From the NCBI RefSeq assembly GCF_014359565.1, contig NZ_JACIZD010000007.1, forward strand, positions 1 through 64,000: a stretch of 64,000 nt of DNA. The letters run 5' to 3'. The position numbers were made by a program, and so were the translations under genes. Shown one piece after another: positions 1,304-46,604 of this stretch; within the stretch, counting starts at the first letter, position 1, and the number at the start of each line of letters is the position of its first letter. This DNA comes from Immundisolibacter sp. (GTDB lineage: Bacteria; Pseudomonadota; Gammaproteobacteria; Immundisolibacterales; Immundisolibacteraceae). Below the pieces are notes generated by a model. It saw only the letters and a list, made by a program, of their open reading frames with translations. It searched no databases and was not told where the DNA came from.

Positions 1304-2914
1304 ATGGCGCCGGCGGTGTCGTGTTTCCGACCTTTTCCTGTGGACGGCCCCTTGGCGAGCAAATCGATACGACGTGTTCTTGGCGCGTCGCTGCTGGGTG
1401 TTTGTGCGCTGGCCCGGGCCGCCGAGGCGCCGGCGCGCTTCGACGTCTGGGAGTACCGGGTGAACGGGAATTCGCTGCTGCCACAGACCACCATCGAAAA
1501 GGTGGTGTACCCGTTCCTGGGTCCGGACCGCAGTTTCGAGGACGTGGACGCCGTGCGCGGCGCGCTGGAACAGGCCTACGCCGAGGCCGGCTACCGCACC
1601 GTGGCGGTCAATCTGCCGCAGCAGGAAGTGCGCGGCGGCGTGGTGCAGATCGAGGTGGTGGAACGGCCGGTCGGCCGCTTGCGCGTCAGCGGCGCGCGCT
1701 ATTTTTCGCCGGAACGCATGAAGGCCGCCGTGCCGGCGCTGGCCGAAGGCACGGTGCCGCATTTCCCGACCGTGCAGCAGCAGCTGGACCGTCTGCGCGG
1801 CAATCCGGACCGCGAGTTCTTCCAGGTGCTGCGCGAGGGCCGGCGCGAGGACGAGGTGGAGGTTGAGCTCAAGGTCAAGGACCAATCGCCGCTGCACGGC
1901 ACCTTGTCGCTGAACGACCGCTACTCGGCCAACACCGAGCGCCTGCGCAGCACCGTCAGCCTGCGCTACGACAACCTGTGGCAGCGCGAGCACGGGGTCG
2001 GCCTGACCTGGATCACCGCGCCGCAGAACCCGAAAGATGCCACCGTGTTCGCGGCCACCTACAGGCTGCCCTTCGGCGGGGACCGGCGCGTGCTGGCGCT
2101 GTACGGGGTGCATTCGGAAAGCGACGTGGCGGCGCTGGGTGGCGTCGGCGTGATCGGCAACGGCGACATTTTCGGCGCCCGCTGGGTGCTGCCGCTGGGC
2201 GGGGACGCCAGTTTCTGGCACACGCTGACGCTGGGCGTGGATTACAAGAAGTTCGACGAGACGCTGAATCTGCTGGGCGCCGATGCGCTCAAGACGCCGA
2301 TCAGCTACACGCCGCTGTCGGCCGAGTACAGCGCCACCCGCCGCGACGAGCCTGGTTTCTGGCAGGGCAACCTGGGGCTGCATTTCGCGCCGCGCGGCCT
2401 GCTGGGCAACGACGAGGCCGAATTTGCCGAAAAGCGCTACAACGCCAAGCCGAATTTCGTTTACCTGAACGCCGGCATCGAGCGGCAGCGGCGCCTGCCG
2501 GGCGGCTTTGGCCTGAACCTGAGTGTCGACGGCCAGCTCGTCGACGCGCCGCTGATCAGCAACGAACAGTACGCCGCCGGCGGTGCCGACACGGTGCGCG
2601 GTTACGTGGAGGCCGAGGAACTGGGCGACCGCGGCGTGCGCGGCGGCATCGTGCTGTCCAGACCGGTCGGGGGGGTGCCGGGGGTGGATGAGCTGATCGC
2701 CCTGAGTTTCGTCGAGGGCGCCCGCCTGTGGCTGGTGGACGCGCTGCCCGGACAGGACGCCCGTCTGCAACTGGCCAGCGTCGGCGCCGGACTGCGCCTG
2801 ACAGTGCGCAAGCAGCTGAGCACGGCGGTGGATTTCGCCCTGCCGCTGACCGATGCCTCCACCACGCAGGCCGGCGACTGGCGCTGGCTGTTTGCCGTTG
2901 ACTACGCGTTCTGA
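1304..2914 (+). CDS. Two-partner-secretion outer-membrane transporter (FhaC/ShlB type, TpsB)
   Basis: TpsB proteins are 16-strand outer-membrane barrels that export one large partner exoprotein. Residues about 17-42 form a signal peptide (basic SKSIRR, hydrophobic core, ARAAEA). A POTRA domain follows (FDVWEYRVNGNSLLPQ onward, with AYAEAGYRTVAVNLPQQ), then POTRA2 and a barrel ending in a phenylalanine (VDYAF), as expected for BAM-dependent insertion. The chosen ATG at 1304 has GAGGG six bases upstream; an in-frame GTG at 1340 or TTG at 1352 would give a shorter, more usual signal peptide. The frame also runs back through the REP array to 1034, but that part is not protein-like. The partner exoprotein gene starts nine bases after the stop. 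Confidence 0.88.
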   Translation: MAPAVSCFRPFPVDGPLASKSIRRVLGASLLGVCALARAAEAPARFDVWEYRVNGNSLLPQTTIEKVVYPFLGPDRSFEDVDAVRGALEQAYAEAGYRTVAVNLPQQEVRGGVVQIEVVERPVGRLRVSGARYFSPERMKAAVPALAEGTVPHFPTVQQQLDRLRGNPDREFFQVLREGRREDEVEVELKVKDQSPLHGTLSLNDRYSANTERLRSTVSLRYDNLWQREHGVGLTWITAPQNPKDATVFAATYRLPFGGDRRVLALYGVHSESDVAALGGVGVIGNGDIFGARWVLPLGGDASFWHTLTLGVDYKKFDETLNLLGADALKTPISYTPLSAEYSATRRDEPGFWQGNLGLHFAPRGLLGNDEAEFAEKRYNAKPNFVYLNAGIERQRRLPGGFGLNLSVDGQLVDAPLISNEQYAAGGADTVRGYVEAEELGDRGVRGGIVLSRPVGGVPGVDELIALSFVEGARLWLVDALPGQDARLQLASVGAGLRLTVRKQLSTAVDFALPLTDASTTQAGDWRWLFAVDYAF

Positions 2915-2922
2915 GGTGGGCC

Positions 2923-5900
2923 ATGACTGAGCGCATATCGAAGTCGCGGATTCGGCCCGAGGGCGGGCCTCCCACAAAGAAAACTTCCTGTGGGAGCAGT
3001 GCCCCCTGTGGGAGCGGCGCCCTCGCCGCGAATCGTCGTGGCGACCCATTCGGCCCGGGGGCGGGCCTCCCTCAGAGTAGCGAATCTTCCAGCCAATCAT
3101 TCGGCCCGGGGGCGGGCCTCCCACAGGGTGGCGATTCGGCCCGGGGGCGGGCCTCCCACATCTGCTGTGGGAGCGGCGCCCTCGCCGCGAATCTTCAGGC
3201 AACCATTCGGCCCGAGGGCGGGCCTCCCACAGGGCCGAAGCTTCGGACGACCCCATCCCAGAGTGAATATCCGGCTCCACGGCGGCTGCTGGCCACCGCA
3301 CTGGCGATTGTCGGCACCCTGCAGCACAGCCTGCTGTGGGCGGCGCCAGCGCTGCCGGCCGGCACGCTGCCGGTGCCGGCCGCCGCCTGGGTGGCCAGCG
3401 GCGCGGCCAGCCGCGCGGTCAGCGGCGCCAACCTGACCATCACCCAGCAGTCGCAGCGGGCGGTGCTGGACTGGCAGTCGTTCAATGTCTCGGCCGATGC
3501 CAAGGTGCGCTTCGATCAGCCCAATGCCACCGCGGCGGCGCTCAATCGCATCCACGACGCCAACCCGTCGGTCATCCAGGGCCAGCTGACCGCCAACGGC
3601 GAGGTGTACCTGATCAACGCCAACGGCATCCTGTTCGACCAGGGCGCGCGGGTGAACGTTGGCGGGCTGGTGGCGTCGGCGCTGGGTATTTCCCAGGACG
3701 CTTTCAATGCCGGCCTGCTCAGTGTGCCGGTCGGTCAGGCGGCGTTTTCCTTCGGCGGTGACGCTGAGGCCTTCGCCAGCAGCGAGGTGGCGGTCGAGCC
3801 TGGTGCGCAGATCAGCGCCGCCAACGGTGGCCGGGTGATGCTGCTGGCGCCGCGGGTGCGCAACGCCGGCAGCATCAGCACGCCACAGGGGCAGGCGGTA
3901 CTGGCCGGCGGCGACAAGGTGTATCTGGCGCTGCCGCAGTCCTCGCAACTGCGCGGTTTCCTGGTGGAGGTGGACCCGCACGCCTCTGCTGGCGGCGGCA
4001 GCGTGGTCAACGCTCTGGGCGCGCGCGTGCACGCCGAGCGCGGCAATGTGACGTTGGTCGGTTCCACGGTGCGTCAGGACGGCGAGGCCAGCGCGACCAG
4101 CGCTGTGGGACTGAACGGCTCGGTGCGCCTGTTGGCGCGCGACGGTGCAACGGCCAGCGGCGACACGCTGGTGGCCAACAATGGCGGTGCGCTCACGCTG
4201 GGCAGTGGCAGCGTCACCGCCGTCACCCCTGTCGACGACTCGGCCACTGCGCGCGACGATGCACCGTTCGCTGCGTCCAGCATCGAACTGACCGGCCGCA
4301 GCGTGCATCTGCAAGGCGGCGCGCAGGTGCTGGCGCCGGGCGGCAACGTGAGCATCAGCGCCCAGCGCGGCGCGCAGTTCGTGGCCGATGGCGCGGTGCG
4401 CGAGGACGTGCGCATCCAGATCGACCCCGGTGCGCGGGTGGACGTGTCCGGCCTGCGCGAGGTGCCGGTGCCGGTGGAGCGCAACGTGGTCGGCGTCGAG
4501 CTGCGCGGCGACGAACTGAAGGACTCGCCCCTGCAGCGCGACGGCATGCTGCGCAACAAGACCGTGTTCGTCGATGCGCGCGAGGGCACGCCGCTGGCCG
4601 ACGTGTCCGGCGCAGTGGGCGGCATCGAACGCGGCATAGCCGAGCGCAGCACCTCCGGCGGTGACATCACGCTGCGTTCCGAGGGCGACGTGATCGTGCG
4701 CAGCGGCGCGGTGCTGGACGTGTCCGGCGGCTCGGTGACCTGGCAGGGCGGCTTCATCAGCACCACGCTGCTGGTGGGCGAGGATGGCCGCCTCTACGAC
4801 ATCAGCGTTGCCAGCCCGGATCGGCGCTACCTGGCGATCGCCGGCCGCTACGCGGTGACCGACCCCAAATGGGGCGTGATACGCGAGTTCAACACGCTGT
4901 CCGGTCGCTACGAGGCGGCCTATGCGCAGGGCCGGCCGGCCGGGTCGATCAGCGTGCTGGCGCATCGCGCGGTGCTGGACGGCGAGCTGCGCGGCCAGGT
5001 GATGCTGGGGCCGCACCAGCGGGCCATGGCCGAGCGGCCGGCCGCAGGCCGGCTGATTCTGGGCAATGCCGCCGCCGGCGGCGCGAGCCCCGATTTCATG
5101 TTGCCGGACCTGGCGCTGCTGGCCGCGCCACCGGCGCTGGATGACGGCTTCACCTTCGGTTTGCCTGAGGCCCTGATGCCGCTGCCAGCCGGCGCCGCGC
5201 AGCGGCTGGTACTGGATCCGCAGCGTCTGGCGGCGGGCGGTTTCGGCACGCTCGAAGCCTACGTGAACGGCAGCATCGAGGTGGCCGCGCCGGTGTCGCT
5301 GGCGCCCGGCGGGTCACTGCGCCTGACCGGCCGCAGCCTGCAGGTGGCGGCCGACATCAGCGTGCCGGCCGGCACGATCAGCTTGCGGACGCGGCGCACT
5401 GCCGCTTCCACCGACTTGACCGCCGCCGATCACGCGCTGGAGGTGGCAGGCAACGTGCGCCTGTCGGCGGCCGGGCTATGGAGCAACGATCGACTGGGCG
5501 CGCCGGCCGACCTGCTGGCCGCCGACGCCGGCTCCGTCACGCTCGATTCGGTCGCCGATCTGCGCCTGCACGCCGGCAGTGTGGTGGACGTGAGCGGCGG
5601 CGGCGAACTGAACCGCGACGGCGCGCTGCGCGGCGGCCGTGGCGGCAACATCACGCTGTCGGTGGGCCGCTTCGACCTGAGTGATAACGATCCGCAGACC
5701 AGCAGCATGCTCCTGGACGGCGAGTTGCTGGGTTACGGACTGGCCGGTGGCGGGCGGCTGCAGGTGTCGGCCTCCAGGGTGCAGATCGGCGGCGCGGCGC
5801 CGGGCGAACGGCGCGTGTTGCACCTGCTGCCGGAATTTTTCCAGCGCGGTGGCTTCGGCGCCTACCAGGTAAACGGTCAGGACGGCCTGGATGTGGCCGA

Positions 5901-32510: not shown

Positions 32511-32596
32511 AAAAAAAACCCGGCCAGGGGTGGCCGGGTTTGATGGGATAAACCCGCTCAGGGAGGGGAAGCGGGCGATACCTCGCAGAGGTCTCG
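32511..32596 (-). ncRNA. Putative small RNA, copy 1, with C-rich anti-Shine-Dalgarno loop
   Basis: The minus strand shows three ordered elements: a small ACCTC-TGC-GAGGT hairpin, a CCCGCT/AGCGGG stem (32553-32575) whose 11-base loop is TCCCCTCCCTG, and a strong terminator (ten-base-pair stem AACCCGGCCA/TGGCCGGGTT followed by eight Ts, ending near 32511). An identical promoter-like block lies upstream. The second copy at 32713-32800 keeps all elements, with sequence changes in the terminator that preserve pairing. No ORF is conserved. The exact ends are estimates. Confidence 0.68.
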
Positions 32597-32601
32597 CTTG
32601 T

Positions 32602-32630
32602 TAAGACCGGGGCTGATACCGGAAAGTTTC
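32602..32630 (-). promoter_or_regulatory. ECF (sigma-E)-like promoter of small RNA copy 1
   Basis: Minus strand GAAACTT (-35, 32630-32624) and GGTCTTA (-10, 32608-32602), 15 bases apart. This resembles the sigma-E pattern GGAACTT-N15/16-GTC. A sigma-32-like reading is also possible. The block is identical in copy 2 apart from two bases in the spacer. Confidence 0.45.
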
Positions 32631-32712
32631 ACGGTCGACCAGAATTGTTTTCGACGGCCGCCACGGCGCGTGGGTAGGCTCGATGTCGGACATGCGCACG
32701 CCGATCGCAGGC

Positions 32713-32800
32713 AAAAAAAACCCCGGTCACGAGTGGCCGGGGTTAGAAGGGATAAACCCGCTCAGGGAGGGGAAGCGGGTGATACCTCGCAGAGGTCTCG
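32713..32800 (-). ncRNA. Putative small RNA, copy 2, with C-rich anti-Shine-Dalgarno loop
   Basis: Same architecture as the copy at 32511: an ACCTC/GAGGT hairpin, a seven-base-pair ACCCGCT/AGCGGGT stem (32756-32780) with the identical loop TCCCCTCCCTG, and a terminator AACCCCGG...CCGGGGTT with eight Ts ending near 32713. Its promoter overlaps the last codons of ratB, so it could also be released from the ratAB message. The two copies are about 202 bases apart. The loop is complementary to GGAGGGG-type ribosome-binding sites, suggesting base pairing with mRNAs. Confidence 0.68.
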
Positions 32801-32805
32801 TTGGT

Positions 32806-32834
32806 TAAGACCGGGGCTGGCACCGGAAAGTTTC
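32806..32834 (-). promoter_or_regulatory. ECF (sigma-E)-like promoter of small RNA copy 2
   Basis: Minus strand GAAACTT (32834-32828), 15-base spacer, GGTCTTA (32812-32806), as in copy 1. The -35 element overlaps the ratB stop codon (32833-32835). Confidence 0.45.
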
Positions 32835-33123
32835 ACCTGCGGTCAGGCTTTTTTGCGTTGGCCGCCGCGCGTTGCCGTCGCGCCGTTTTCGGGTCCACCT
32901 GCAGCGGCAGGTACAGCTCCAGCCGGTCGCCGTCGGCGAGCGGCGTGTCCGCGCTGACGGCCCGTCCGAACAGGCCCAGCGTCCGGCCTTCGCTCAGCGC
33001 CAGATCGAAGGCCGCAAGCGCATCGCGGGCCGTGGCGCCGACCGGCAATTCAGCTTGAATGATCCGGTAGTCGGCCCCGTCCGGGCAGGCAACCTCGATC
33101 CGGATCCGCTCAGCGGCGGCCAT
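32833..33123 (-). CDS. ratB: RnfH/RatB ubiquitin-like-fold protein
   Basis: A 96-residue protein of the RnfH family (beta-grasp): [21 protein letters not shown], a variable middle, then [37 protein letters not shown], the family signature. The ATG at 33123 overlaps the end of ratA by 14 bases. The ratA-ratB pair next to smpB is a conserved gammaproteobacterial arrangement. The biochemical role is unclear. Confidence 0.88.
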
Positions 33124-33568
33124 GCAGCGCATCCGCGCGGCGACAGAACGAATCGACCAGCCCATCCGCTACCACGCCCAGCACCGGGCCCAGCGCCATG
33201 CCCAGCAGCCGGCCGGCCAGTGCGTAGGCGATGTGAAAGCCGACCCGCGTCTGCGGCCGTGCCGCGGCTTCACCCAGTTCATCGAAGGTCCACACGGCGT
33301 GAAAGCGGCTGAACGGCCCCTCCACCAGGCGCAACTCCACGCGCCGATGCGGCTGAAGCAGATTTCGCGTGGTCAGGCGCTTGTGCAGGCCGGCCATCGC
33401 CATGTCGAGGCTGGCCAGCATGGTGGTTTCGTCCTGCTCCAGCACCCGCGCCGAGGCACACCAGGGCAGGAATTGCGGGTACGACTCGACATCGTTCACC
33501 AGGCCGAACATTTCCTCGGCCCGATGCGCCACCACCACCGACTTGCGTATTTCCCGAACCGCCGCCAT
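33110..33568 (-). CDS. ratA: RatA-type START/coenzyme-Q-binding domain protein
   Basis: A 152-residue protein with the polyketide-cyclase/START fold: [40 protein letters not shown], then [20 protein letters not shown] and [14 protein letters not shown]. RatA (YfjG) was reported to hinder 70S ribosome assembly in E. coli; relatives (Coq10) bind ubiquinone, so the true role is debated. It diverges from smpB, and ratB follows with overlap. The ATG at 33568 matches the usual family start. Confidence 0.9.
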
Positions 33569-33699
33569 CCGCCCTCGTACCCTCGTTGCGTGGCGACCAT
33601 GCCACCAGCGCATGATAGCGGACCGGTCCGGCCGGCCCCGGCGCGGCGTCGATCGGCCATCCCCTACAATGCCCGCCCGCTCCTGTCCGCGATCCGCCC

Positions 33700-34167
33700 A
33701 TGTCCAGCGCACCTTCCGCCACCATCATCGTCAACAAGAAGGCGCGCTTCGACTACCACCTTGAAGACCGCTTCGAGGCCGGCATCGCACTCGAAGGCTG
33801 GGAGGTCAAGAGTCTGCGCGCCGGGCGCGTGCAGCTGGTCGACAGCTACGTGATCATCAAGAACGGCGAGGCCTTCCTGCTGGGCGCCATCATCACGCCG
33901 CTGGCCACCGTGTCCACCCACTACGTGCCCGAGCCGCGGCGCACCCGCAAGCTGCTGCTGCACCGCGAGGAGCTGAACAAGCTGATCGGCGCCGTCGAGC
34001 GCAAGGGCTATACCCTGGTGGCGTTGGCCATGTACTGGAAGCGCGGCAAGTGCAAGGTGGAAATCGGCCTGGCCAAGGGCAAGCAGGCGCACGACAAGCG
34101 CGACAGCGAGCGCGACCGCGACTGGCAGCGCGAGCGGGGGCGGATATTGAAATCGTCCAAGCGATAG
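33700..34167 (+). CDS. smpB: SsrA-binding protein
   Basis: SmpB carries alanyl-tmRNA into stalled ribosomes. The 155-residue protein has the oligonucleotide-binding barrel ([60 protein letters not shown]) and the basic C-terminal tail ([20 protein letters not shown]...ILKSSKR) that enters the mRNA channel. A TACAAT -10 box lies at 33665-33670. The tmRNA gene is 130 bases downstream. Confidence 0.97.
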
Positions 34168-34298: not shown

Positions 34299-34657
34299 GG
34301 GGGCGACCTGGCTTCGACGTGGGTTGCGAAACCTGAGGTGCATGCCGAGGTGCAGTGACCTCGTAAATCACTCTGCAAAACTTTAGTTGCCAACGACGAC
34401 AACTACGCACTCGCTGCTTAAAACCCAGTAGGGTGCCGTCTGACCGGATGTGCTTGTGCGTTCGGGGTTCAGGCGTCGACACACACAAGCTCGCGGCAAG
34501 GCAGGCCTGGGGCCGACCCGCTAAAACCTTTCAGGATCGCTGGCTGTTTTCCCTGCCCGTCGGGTAGCAGCCGGCTAAAATAATAGACTGGGATAAGCAT
34601 GTAGAGCCAACGGCAGAGGACTTGCGGACGCGGGTTCGATTCCCGCCGCCTCCACCA
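34299..34657 (+). ncRNA. ssrA: tmRNA
   Basis: About 359 bases. The 5' end GGGGGCGACCTGGCTTCGACG pairs with the 3' acceptor CGCCTCC followed by ACCA at 34657. The T-arm GGGTTCGATTCCC precedes it. The tag reading frame at 34389-34421 encodes A-NDDNYALAA followed by TAA, the standard degradation tag with Asp in place of Glu at the fourth position. The encoded CCA end is complete. smpB lies immediately upstream. The 3' end appears to be the attachment site of the island that follows. Confidence 0.96.
34625..34644 (+). other. Left attachment repeat (tmRNA 3' end)
   Basis: CGGACGCGGGTTCGATTCCC within the tmRNA T-arm. The same 20 bases with one change (CGGACGCGGCTTCGATTCCC) recur at 41349-41368. 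tmRNA 3' ends are common integrase targets. Confidence 0.65.
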
Positions 34658-35294: not shown

Positions 35295-37133
35295 TCAAAC
35301 GTCAATTGGCGTCGTCTTCCAAACATCCTGCGCCAAGGCAATGAGCATTGCGTGGCGCTTCTCGATGGACACCGCATTCCAGTTGGGGAAGGCTTCCAGC
35401 TTGGCGTTGATCCGCGAGATGGACGTGTTTTGCCCGACGTCGGTCAGCGCCACCAGACTGCGGGTCAGGTAGTTACCGCTCTTTCCGTACTCGGCCTGCT
35501 TAGCCTTGTAGAAGTCATTGCCCGCGACGATGTTGATGGGCTTTTCCAGCAAGGTCAGATTGCCGAGGCGATTCTTGTAGTCGTCGTAGACCGCATTCGG
35601 GTTTTCTGCCGCCCACGTTGCACGCAGTTCCGCCTTCGGGTTGTCGGGCAGGATGTGCTCGATCTCCAGCTTGGTGAAGGGCTCCAGACTGCCCGCGGTC
35701 TTGAGGCCGCTGAACGCCATCTCGACGTGCTGGGTCAGCCGTGCCAGCAAGTAACGTGTGCGGTACTGCTGCATTGAATACAGCGTGAAGCGCTTGAGGG
35801 CGTCGGCGAGTTCTTGCGACTTGCTTTCCATATTCTTCTCGAAGCGGTCGGCGACGAAGGCGTTGAGCTGAACCTTTTGCTTCACCGGATCAGTCGTCTC
35901 CGCAATCGCGCGGAGCTCGTCGGCCCATTGAGAGAAGCTGCGTTCCAGATCCTTGGTCGGCGTCTTGGTGAAGATGTAGTAGAAGAGGAAGCTCTCCAGC
36001 TGCGCCACGAAGTGGTCGAACAACGGCTTCGGAAAGTTCGCCGCTGCCAGCAGCAAGACGTAGTGCAAGCTGAACGCGCCGCCGGCCAACCGCTTGAGAC
36101 TGTCCATTGCCAGACTGGGCTTGCCGTCATTACCCAGCCCGTTGGCAAAGGCCAGGTAGTGCTCGACGTTGCGGATCACCTTGCGGACGAACTCGAAGGG
36201 TTTGCCTGCGTAGTCGCACAGCGCCGCGTTGTCCTTGGCGATGAACCAGTCGTAGATCTCGTCCTCGCGTACCACCGCGTCGCCGCGCTCGTTCTTGATG
36301 ATGTAGTTGGCCATCAGGAAGTAGCGCAGGAAGCGCAGCGGCTTTTCCTTCTCCTTCTCCAGCGGCTTGGTGATCTTCTTCCACTCGTCTTTGAGCTGAG
36401 TGAACTGAGCCTGCTTGACCTGCGTGAACAGCAGGTTCTTGAGCAAGTCCATCGGATTCAGACCTACGCCACGCTCGTTGATGGTCTCGAAAATCTTCAG
36501 GGCGCTGCTGACGTCGGTGGAGATCTGGATGAACACCACGTAGTTGGCCAGATAGCCCCAGTATTTCTTCAGCTTGGATGCGTCGTCGTAGTTGTCCTTC
36601 AAGTAGCTGTATAGGGTGCTGTAGGCGTTGACCAGATTTTCAAGCGACCCGAAGCTCGTGATACCTGCGGCTTGAATGCCCGCGCGCACGGCCTGCGGGT
36701 CAGAGTCCAGTTCCACCAGCTTGGCCATCACTTCGCCCGCGCTTTCGTAACGTGGCTCCAGCTTCAGGTTGGTGTGCACCTCGCCGTCGCTGTCCACATA
36801 GCTGGTCGAGATCAACCCGGAAATCATCTGCCGTTGCTGCGGCTCGCCCTGGAATAAATGCTTCAGCGCACACAACAGCAGGAAGAAAGTGGTCAGGCGT
36901 TGCTGGCCGTCGATCACCTCGTAATGGGTCTTCTGCTCGGTGGGTGATACCAGAACGGTGCCGATGAAATACTGCCGCGCCGTGCCAGCATCGATCTGCT
37001 CGCCGATGTCCTCCAGCAGCTGATGCACTTCCTTGTCGGTCCAGACGTACTCGCGCTGGTAGTCCGGAACGATGTAGAAGCACTCCCGGAATGCTTCCCC
37101 GATGCTGTATTGGTGGTTTTCGATGCGTGCCAT
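35295..37133 (-). CDS. DUF262-DUF1524 protein (GmrSD-like restriction/defence protein)
   Basis: A 612-residue protein with the two halves of GmrSD-type systems. The N-terminal DUF262 domain is ParB/Srx-like and predicted to hydrolyse nucleotides, with IVPDYQREYVW and the signature IDGQQRLTTF at residues 74-83. The C-terminal DUF1524 HNH-type nuclease has KLEIEHILPDNP and NRLGNLTLLEKPIN. Such proteins cut modified phage DNA (GmrSD, BrxU) or sense other DNA modifications (SspE). Key motifs look intact. A GAAGGAAG site precedes the ATG. The IS3 element lies 61 bases upstream and may have displaced the original promoter. Confidence 0.88.
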   Translation of the reverse strand: MARIENHQYSIGEAFRECFYIVPDYQREYVWTDKEVHQLLEDIGEQIDAGTARQYFIGTVLVSPTEQKTHYEVIDGQQRLTTFFLLLCALKHLFQGEPQQRQMISGLISTSYVDSDGEVHTNLKLEPRYESAGEVMAKLVELDSDPQAVRAGIQAAGITSFGSLENLVNAYSTLYSYLKDNYDDASKLKKYWGYLANYVVFIQISTDVSSALKIFETINERGVGLNPMDLLKNLLFTQVKQAQFTQLKDEWKKITKPLEKEKEKPLRFLRYFLMANYIIKNERGDAVVREDEIYDWFIAKDNAALCDYAGKPFEFVRKVIRNVEHYLAFANGLGNDGKPSLAMDSLKRLAGGAFSLHYVLLLAAANFPKPLFDHFVAQLESFLFYYIFTKTPTKDLERSFSQWADELRAIAETTDPVKQKVQLNAFVADRFEKNMESKSQELADALKRFTLYSMQQYRTRYLLARLTQHVEMAFSGLKTAGSLEPFTKLEIEHILPDNPKAELRATWAAENPNAVYDDYKNRLGNLTLLEKPINIVAGNDFYKAKQAEYGKSGNYLTRSLVALTDVGQNTSISRINAKLEAFPNWNAVSIEKRHAMLIALAQDVWKTTPIDV

Positions 37134-45271: not shown

Positions 45272-46604
45272 TTTCGTCATGCCGTCGCTGGGCAGCGACA
45301 TGGAAAGCGGCAAGCTGATCGAGTGGCGCATCAAGCCGGGGGACCGGGTCCGGCGCGGCGACATCGTGGCGGTGGTGGAGACGCAGAAGGGCGCCATCGA
45401 CGTCGAGATCTTCGACAGCGGCGTGGTCGAATCGCTGGTGGTGCCACCGGGCGCCGAAGTGCCGGTCGGCACCGTGCTGGCCACCGTGCGCAGCGACGGC
45501 GAGACGGCGCCAGAGCCACCCGCCACAGCCGCCGCACCAATGCATCCGCCTGCACCAGCCGCCGCTCCTGCACCACCGGCTGCGCCGGCCCCGGCGCCTG
45601 CCATCCCAAGCGGCGAACCGTCCCCGCGCGAACGGCTGCGTGCCTCGCCGGCAGCCCGCCAGCGCGCCGCCGCGCTGGGCATCGACCTGGCCACGCTCAC
45701 CGGCAGCGGCCCCGGCGGCGCCATCACGCTGGCCGACGTCGAGGCGGCACCTGCAAAGCAGCCGGTACGGGAGCCCCGTGCCAGCCCGTCGGTGCGCCAG
45801 CGGGCGCTGGAACTGGGGATCGATCTGGCGCAGGTCACCGGCAGCGGCGCCAAGGGGGCGATCACCGTGGCGGACCTGGAGCGCGCCGCGGCCAGTGCGA
45901 AGCCGGCGGCGCCCGCCCGACCATCCGCCGCGCCGTTCGAGCCCGACGCCATGCGTCGCGCCATCGCCGCCGCCATGGCCCGCTCCAAGCGCGAAATCCC
46001 GCACTACTACCTGGCCACCACGGTCGACTTCGAGCCGGCGCTGCGCTTCGTCGAGCGCGTCAATGCGCAGCGCGATCCCGAACAGCGCCTGCTGTACGCC
46101 GTGCTGCTGATCAAGGCGCTGGCGCGGGCGCTCAAGGAAGTGCCGGAACTGAACGGCTTCTGGCGCCAGGAGCGCTTCGAGCCATCAGCCGCTGCACATG
46201 TCGGCGTGGCCGTGGCGCTGCGCCGGCGCGGGCTGATCGCGCCCGCCCTGCACGACGTGGCGGACAAGGATCTGGATACGCTGATGACGGAGCTGAAGGA
46301 CCTGGTGCAGCGCGCCCGCGCCGGCGGGCTGCGCAGCTCCGAACTGACCGACCCCACCATCACCCTGTCCAGCCTTGGCGACAACGGCGTCGAGACGCTG
46401 TATCCCATCATCACCCCGCCGCAGGTGGCAGTGGTGGGTGCGGGCTCCGTGGTGCGCCGGCCGTGGGTGGTCGGCGAGGGGCTGGCCGTGCGCCGCGTCA
46501 TCACCCTCACCCTGGCCGGCGATCACCGTGTCAGCGACGGCCACCGCGGCGCGCTGTTCCTGGCGGCGCTCGACCGCCTGCTGCAAAAACCGGAGGAGCT
46601 ATGA
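45264..46604 (+). CDS. 2-oxoacid dehydrogenase E2 acyltransferase with tandem E3-binding domains
   Basis: A 446-residue dihydrolipoamide acyltransferase. The lipoyl domain (1-76) has lipoylated K42 in [12 protein letters not shown] Pro/Ala linker follows, then two successive peripheral-subunit-binding domains (about 126-160, [20 protein letters not shown]; about 172-207, [20 protein letters not shown]), then the catalytic domain (about 225-446) with the active-site motif [11 protein letters not shown]. Most E2s have one such binding domain. The GTG at 45264 overlaps the E1 beta gene by eight bases. No E3 gene is present, so dihydrolipoamide dehydrogenase must come from elsewhere. Confidence 0.9.

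Follow-up and report, generated by a model that had tools for sequence, protein, structure and literature searches.

Predicted tandem anti-hemB (RF02837) family small RNA genes with sigma-E-type promoters downstream of ratB in an Immundisolibacter genome

The window, which is the whole 64,000-nucleotide stretch of Immundisolibacter sp. DNA analyzed here, carries two copies of one small RNA (sRNA) unit on the minus strand at positions 32511 to 32834. The pair is flanked on one side by genes for RatB, a RatA-like protein, SmpB, and tmRNA and on the other by an alpha/beta hydrolase gene. ratB (32833 to 33165, minus strand) encodes an RnfH-family ubiquitin-like protein (PF03658, 56.7 bits), and ratA (33110 to 33712, minus strand) encodes a START-like protein of the RatA family (PF03364, 104.9 bits; NF007999 below its cut-off), with the true start of ratA probably internal to this open reading frame. 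smpB was identified at 33700 to 34167 on the plus strand (PF01668, 196.9 bits; NF003843). Just past the tmRNA gene (34299 to 34657), a common site for islands, lies a gene for a GmrSD-family type IV restriction enzyme (35298 to 37133, minus strand; PF03235 and PF07510, and the PADLOC Orf5/HEC-06 models); a search of the remainder of the window for direct repeats of the 3′ end of the tmRNA, of at least 20 nucleotides, gave none. Elsewhere in the window, a 105-nucleotide direct repeat with 70% identity and a spacing of 138 was present at 45639 to 45881.

Each sRNA unit consists, in order, of a promoter, a 5′ hairpin (H1), a hairpin with a C-rich loop (H2), a linker, and a U8-tailed intrinsic terminator. 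In copy 1, the −35 element GAAACTT (32828 to 32834), which is the same in two other genomes of the genus, is followed by a sigma-E-type −10 element, GGTCTTA (32806 to 32812), with a predicted start near 32800. The sRNA gene of approximately 88 nucleotides (32713 to 32801; matched by RF02837 at 32713 to 32782 and by our covariance model R1, described below, at 32714 to 32800) folds into H1 (GA-n-ACCTC/GAGGT-n-TC; 32781 to 32799), H2 (32756 to 32780, with CCCCUCCCU unpaired at 32764 to 32772), and the terminator (32713 to 32744), the helix of which covaries throughout the family. Copy 2 repeats this layout, with its −35 (GAAACTT) at 32624 to 32630, its −10 (GGTCTTA) at 32602 to 32608, a predicted start near 32596, and an sRNA gene of approximately 86 nucleotides (32511 to 32597; RF02837, 32511 to 32578; R1, 32511 to 32596) that comprises H1 (32575 to 32597), H2 (32554 to 32574, with CCCCUCCCU unpaired at 32560 to 32568), and the U8-tailed terminator (32511 to 32541). 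The predicted RNA of copy 1 would span about 32800 to 32713 and that of copy 2 about 32596 to 32511. The −35 element of copy 1 overlaps the ratB stop codon, TGA (TGAAACTT; 32828 to 32836), and no terminator was seen between ratB and copy 1; because of this arrangement, the ratAB transcript may also terminate at copy 1.

In both copies H1 reads ACCTC-TGC-GAGGT, and the H2 stem CCCGCT/AGCGGG presents the loop core CCCCUCCCU. Folding energies were −33.1 and −39.1 kcal/mol. Pairing probabilities left the CCCCTCCCT loop unpaired at approximately 0.97 to 1.0 in both copies (at least 0.97 for the first C and 0.73 for the flanking C), and the CCCUCCCU loop bases were likewise unpaired at 0.97 to 1.0 in copies 1 and 2, in line with an exposed loop complementary to ribosome-binding sites, as the first-pass annotation of this DNA had proposed. 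The promoters, the ACCTC/GAGGT hairpin, the CCCGCT/AGCGGG stem with its C-rich loop, and the eight-T terminators that it listed were all present; the spacing of 202 bases that it gave needs correction, as pattern matches at 32760 to 32832 and 32556 to 32628 place the copies 204 bases apart. Its remark that the terminator stems differ and still pair was also accurate, since CCCCGGcCACTCGTGaCCGGGG and CCCGGCCACCCCTGGCCGGG are unlike in sequence and both retain pairing. The ACCTCTGCGAGGT 5′ hairpin is the same in all five copies found in the genus.

Searches against Rfam identified the pair as belonging to family RF02837 (anti-hemB, "Burkholderia RNA 7"). The copies scored 53.4 and 52.1 bits against a gathering score of 49.5, with E values of approximately 1e−9 over the 64 kb, and no further match above the cut-off was found in the genome. 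Scores in the congeners were 57.6, 57.6, and 53.2 bits (a single copy in G001 and a tandem in G002), and no match was obtained in four genomes of the same taxonomic family. As RF02837 matches at E values up to 10, in Escherichia coli and others, proved to be noise, only scores above gathering or R1 E values are used as evidence here. The middle hairpin of the Rfam consensus is deleted in both window copies, where the alignment and fold show a short linker instead. The copies lie between ratB and the hydrolase gene and not beside hemB; genomic position is no part of the RF02837 model, and many relatives also sit elsewhere. The window element is no new kind of RNA, since it belongs to a family already described in Rfam.

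An independent covariance model, R1, was built from 13 sequences from other genera of the class. The genus of the window was left out because a MAFFT alignment (A1) had placed its terminator onto the middle hairpin. R1 recovered copy 1 at 47.5 bits (E value, 1.3e−12) and copy 2 at 46.4 bits (E value, 2.8e−12), and at E values of ≤1e−4 it matched 180 of 369 genomes of the class, mostly once per genome. No R1 match was found in two genomes that represent the family and order of the window (G003 and G007). Among 299 sampled genomes of the phylum, 16 matches were obtained, every one of them within the same class. Among the matches listed, a scan for promoter plus loop returned Nitrosospira, Herbaspirillum, Undibacterium, Thauera, Azoarcus, Chitiniphilus, and Ectothiorhodospira together with many uncultured relatives. 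Tandem arrangements recur, with pairs in Ectothiorhodospira mobilis and Nitrosospira briensis and R1 sets of two copies in G113, G155, G247, and G327 and of four in G177 and G284. The quadruplets lie beside engB (locus L219 of G177, 2476 to 3227; locus L220 of G284, 2240 to 3176), and most of their copies have a sigma-E-type promoter of their own.

Family-wide covariation showed that the RNA structure is under selection, which bears out what had been read from the window alone. Across 95 distinct sequences, 96.2% of the cells in paired columns could pair, and double-sided changes occurred in 21 of 22 pairs; none of 500 shuffles reached values as high on any of five covariation measures, and pairing fell to 55% when partners were shifted by one column. 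This alignment was fitted to the structure of R1 and is biased towards it; in an unfitted MAFFT alignment (A2), double changes were found in 14 of the 22 pairs. The loop core C-T-C-C-C-T was kept in 95 to 97 of 97 rows, which makes CCUCCCU near-invariant. The 5′ hairpin lies outside the R1 model; at least five pairs were possible there in 79 of 81 relatives, with a mean z score of −2.0 against mononucleotide shuffles.

Both window promoters read GAAACTT-N15-GGTCTTA (32834 to 32806 and 32630 to 32602, minus strand). They are the only two exact sites for GAAACTT-N15..17-TCTNA in the 3.09-Mb genome and stand one mismatch from the sigma-E motif used for scanning, the −35 being GAAACTT and not GGAACTT. 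The copy 1 hexamers were 100% the same in G000 and G002, with 53% identity across the 15-nucleotide spacer. To extend the comparison to the family, a site was defined as GAACTT-N15..17-TC(T/A)NA with at most one mismatch, and 34 loci were chosen by the RNA model alone, with no promoter information used. Such a site preceded 28 of the 34, compared with 0.43% of control windows, a figure that refers to the full set selected by covariance model and not to the 34-locus subset; this enrichment substantiates the sigma-E-like character first assigned to the window promoters. The distance from promoter to RNA was nearly fixed among the 28. Three loci of one family (L078, L079, and L085, in G169, G016, and G278) have an intact RNA with the sigma-E-type promoter absent, which suggests that control was switched in that lineage. 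The genome of the window encodes RpoE (TIGR02939, 283 bits, above the curated cut-off), and frames recognized by eye in translation as RseA- and RseB-like follow rpoE. A gene for a DegP/HtrA-family protease in this genome lies downstream of GAACTT-N17-TCTCA; the scan found no sigma-E-type promoter upstream of rpoE itself, which, like the −35 mismatch of the window copies, counts against sigma-E control. On our reading, the window pair is probably transcribed and dependent on sigma-E in this organism.

To locate the usual home of the family, neighboring frames of 120 loci, a set that includes duplicates of one place, were clustered and identified by Pfam (HemB and PolA) or by a GTPase match (EngB). 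Among these frames EngB occurred 59 times, HemB 51 times, and PolA 19 times, and the usual home is the polA-engB interval in Gammaproteobacteria or the hemB-engB interval in beta-type genomes, the latter explaining the name anti-hemB. In the genus of the window, engB has other neighbors and no R1 match lies there. The position beside ratB was found in three genomes of this genus only, with a tandem in two of the three, among the part of the matches for which neighbors were classified; this agrees with the earlier statement that no such RNA had been described next to ratAB-smpB. In the genus of the window, the sRNA appears to have relocated behind ratB, been duplicated, and lost its middle hairpin; the high frequency of the engB position suggests this direction of the move. 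Acquisition by horizontal transfer is a possible alternative. In a further genome (G075, contig C9, locus L069), a family member sits beside rimO with engB on another contig, which shows another relocation.

The reading we favor, with fair confidence, is that the window carries two tandem RF02837-family sRNA genes, each with its own sigma-E promoter, whose loops mask G-rich Shine-Dalgarno sites. Each copy would be driven separately by its sigma-E (RpoE/AlgU)-type promoter to give an RNA of approximately 87 nucleotides, so that envelope stress would lead RpoE to transcribe both. The free CCCCUCCCU loop could then bind by base pairing to G-rich Shine-Dalgarno sequences of the GGGAGG type in selected mRNAs, blocking ribosome binding and turning translation off, and the U8 tail would suit Hfq. 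Two near-identical copies could raise the dosage and may allow divergence between them. Hfq binding and target masking by the window RNAs are part of this proposal. In one pattern search, CAGGGAGG was found 3 to 12 nucleotides before ATG at 11 sites in the genome and the reversed pattern at none; because the reversed control is not Shine-Dalgarno-like, part of this excess reflects ordinary Shine-Dalgarno usage. About half of the listed CAGGGAGG-N-ATG sites open very short or doubtful frames. Genes of the NnrU, GspH-type pilin, DUF4345, and VdcD families are plausible candidate targets and are offered as leads only. A 67-amino-acid frame (L243) has 11 bases in common with the complement of the loop and had no family match. 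The only family member found with published expression tests is ncS04 of Burkholderia cenocepacia (anti-hemB), an expressed transcript that is reported to be Hfq bound and showed no significant change in any tabulated condition (PMC5688073); in that study, short stress exposures, including membrane stress by SDS, mostly had no effect (PMC5688073). The unchanged levels of ncS04 would argue against simple induction by envelope stress everywhere.

Other explanations of the locus were weighed against this one. Because the ratB stop codon overlaps the −35 element of copy 1 with no terminator between, any transcript reading through from ratAB must terminate at copy 1, which might then be mainly the 3′ untranslated region or terminator of ratAB (an sRNA derived from that region or a plain terminator), with copy 2 as its duplicate and the promoters of minor importance. 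We consider this unlikely, as the spacer diverges between conserved promoter hexamers, the same promoter precedes relatives in other gene contexts, and copy 2 has a full, separate promoter; nor would H1 and the C-rich H2 loop be expected to persist in a bare terminator. The loop also resembles the 16S anti-Shine-Dalgarno core, CCUCC, and the RNA could mainly bind a protein or the ribosome, acting as a decoy or as a mimic of the anti-Shine-Dalgarno sequence that influences translation broadly, and not particular mRNAs. A CsrA-type decoy needs GGA, however, and the C-rich loop lacks it. In keeping with a broad effect, growth slowed when ncS27, a homologue of RF02278 ("toxic small RNA") from Burkholderia with unpaired stretches rich in C and U, was overexpressed (PMC5688073), but ErsA and sX13 are reported to act post-transcriptionally on specific mRNAs, which they repress (PMC7565897, PMC3771888), and we judge this mode of action to be improbable for the window RNAs.

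The first-pass annotation had likened the pair to cuckoo/CcsR-type stress RNAs, and this comparison did not hold up. Descent shared with ar14 (RF02344) of Alphaproteobacteria would be in keeping with a similar C-rich-loop logic, the loops of ar14 being anti-Shine-Dalgarno-like as in the window, and the ar14 model scored the window and some relatives at 27.8 to 38.6 bits. These scores lie far under the ar14 gathering score of 58.8, and membership was rejected at 27.8 bits. ar14 has three hairpins with CCUCCUCCC on each (PMC10746234), whereas a single CCCCUCCCU loop is present here, and the R1 matches of the phylum sample were confined to the class of the window, so that we regard common descent with ar14 as very unlikely. 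The Betaproteobacteria toxic sRNA family RF02278 was also set aside (24.9 and 24.3 bits; gathering score, 50), as were sX11, mmgR, and rnk-leader matches in the window, all of which were below gathering. Taken as a whole, the earlier interpretation stood as to the sRNA pair, the selection on structure, the promoter, and the loop, and failed as to the cuckoo/CcsR group; it had overlooked RF02837 and the ErsA and sX13 connection.

Three points are new here: the relocated tandem form that has no middle hairpin, a promoter of sigma-E type across the family, and evidence that links anti-hemB to the locus of ErsA, and perhaps to sX13, as one family. In 2013, the authors of the sX13 study asked whether the polA loci of other bacteria encode sRNAs that act in a like manner (PMC3771888). 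The present survey offers a testable answer, in that one alignable C-rich-loop sRNA family occurs in about half of the genomes sampled from the class, commonly by engB and behind a sigma-E-type promoter. If borne out, this would assign a role to an Rfam family known chiefly through a name taken from its position and would extend sigma-E control by sRNAs well past enterobacteria and Pseudomonas. The window pair provides a natural experiment, with the same RNA out of its home and doubled.

Among known systems, RF02837 itself shares with the window the C-rich loop, the stem CCCGCT/AGCGGG, and the terminator design; the window differs in having no middle hairpin, a place by ratB and not hemB, and a tandem arrangement, and the Rfam model covers neither the 5′ hairpin nor the promoter of the window copies. 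The interval between polA and engB is also the site of Spot 42 (spf) of E. coli. Spot 42 is controlled by CRP and not sigma-E and had no match in the window; it has only the address in common with the family. It has been described as encoded beside polA (PMC3771888). NmsR of Neisseria, compared by description, consists of homologous sRNAs in tandem whose CU-rich, unpaired stretches are complementary to ribosome-binding sites (PMC5688073).

ErsA of Pseudomonas aeruginosa (RF01719, Pseudomon-1) is located in polA-engB (PMC8575079), a home that it shares with the family of the window but not with the window pair. By experiment, ErsA is strictly sigma22 dependent (PMC7565897), and it reportedly needs Hfq for other targets (PMC8575079). 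Like the window copies, it has a sigma-E-type promoter (GAACTT..GTCAGA in ErsA) and a terminator hairpin with a C-rich loop; a long single-stranded domain takes the place of H2. RF01719 had no match in the window, even at E values of ≤1. R1 weakly found Pseudomonadaceae sRNAs at polA/engB (approximately 28 to 38 bits, loci read), and RF01719 scores above gathering confirmed four Pseudomonadaceae loci as ErsA. The first Pseudomonadaceae genome searched (G168) had no R1 match at engB, which is faced there by a GcvP-like frame; ErsA was found by R1 in the wider sample of this family taken afterwards. Weak Pseudomonadaceae matches away from polA/engB (e.g., L229 to L231 and L235) look like chance C-rich hairpins and were left out of the evidence. 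In the reverse direction, two family loci reached 35.0 and 30.3 bits against the ErsA model and one reached 35.2 bits against the sX13 model, all below gathering.

sX13 of Xanthomonas (RF02232) lies downstream of polA, and its C-rich loops mediate repression of mRNAs that carry G-rich motifs close to the start of translation (PMC3771888). It shares the PolA-downstream locus and C-rich loops with the family and differs from the window RNAs, with their one C-rich loop, in having three; it is Hfq independent and reported to be restricted to Xanthomonadaceae, and RF02232 had no match in the window. By structure and locus, sX13 is an analogue of the window pair and ErsA a close functional relative; common descent of the family is likely with ErsA and possible with sX13. 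No paper joining anti-hemB, ErsA, and sX13 into one family was found in a literature search, and a full-text search for the loop sequence returned nothing. We propose, with the balance of evidence about even in our judgment, that anti-hemB, ErsA, sX13, and the sRNAs of this survey are lineages of a single ancient sRNA under sigma-E control in Gamma- and Betaproteobacteria, with an anti-Shine-Dalgarno loop and a home at polA/hemB-engB, of which the genus of the window would carry a relocated, tandem, three-hairpin form.
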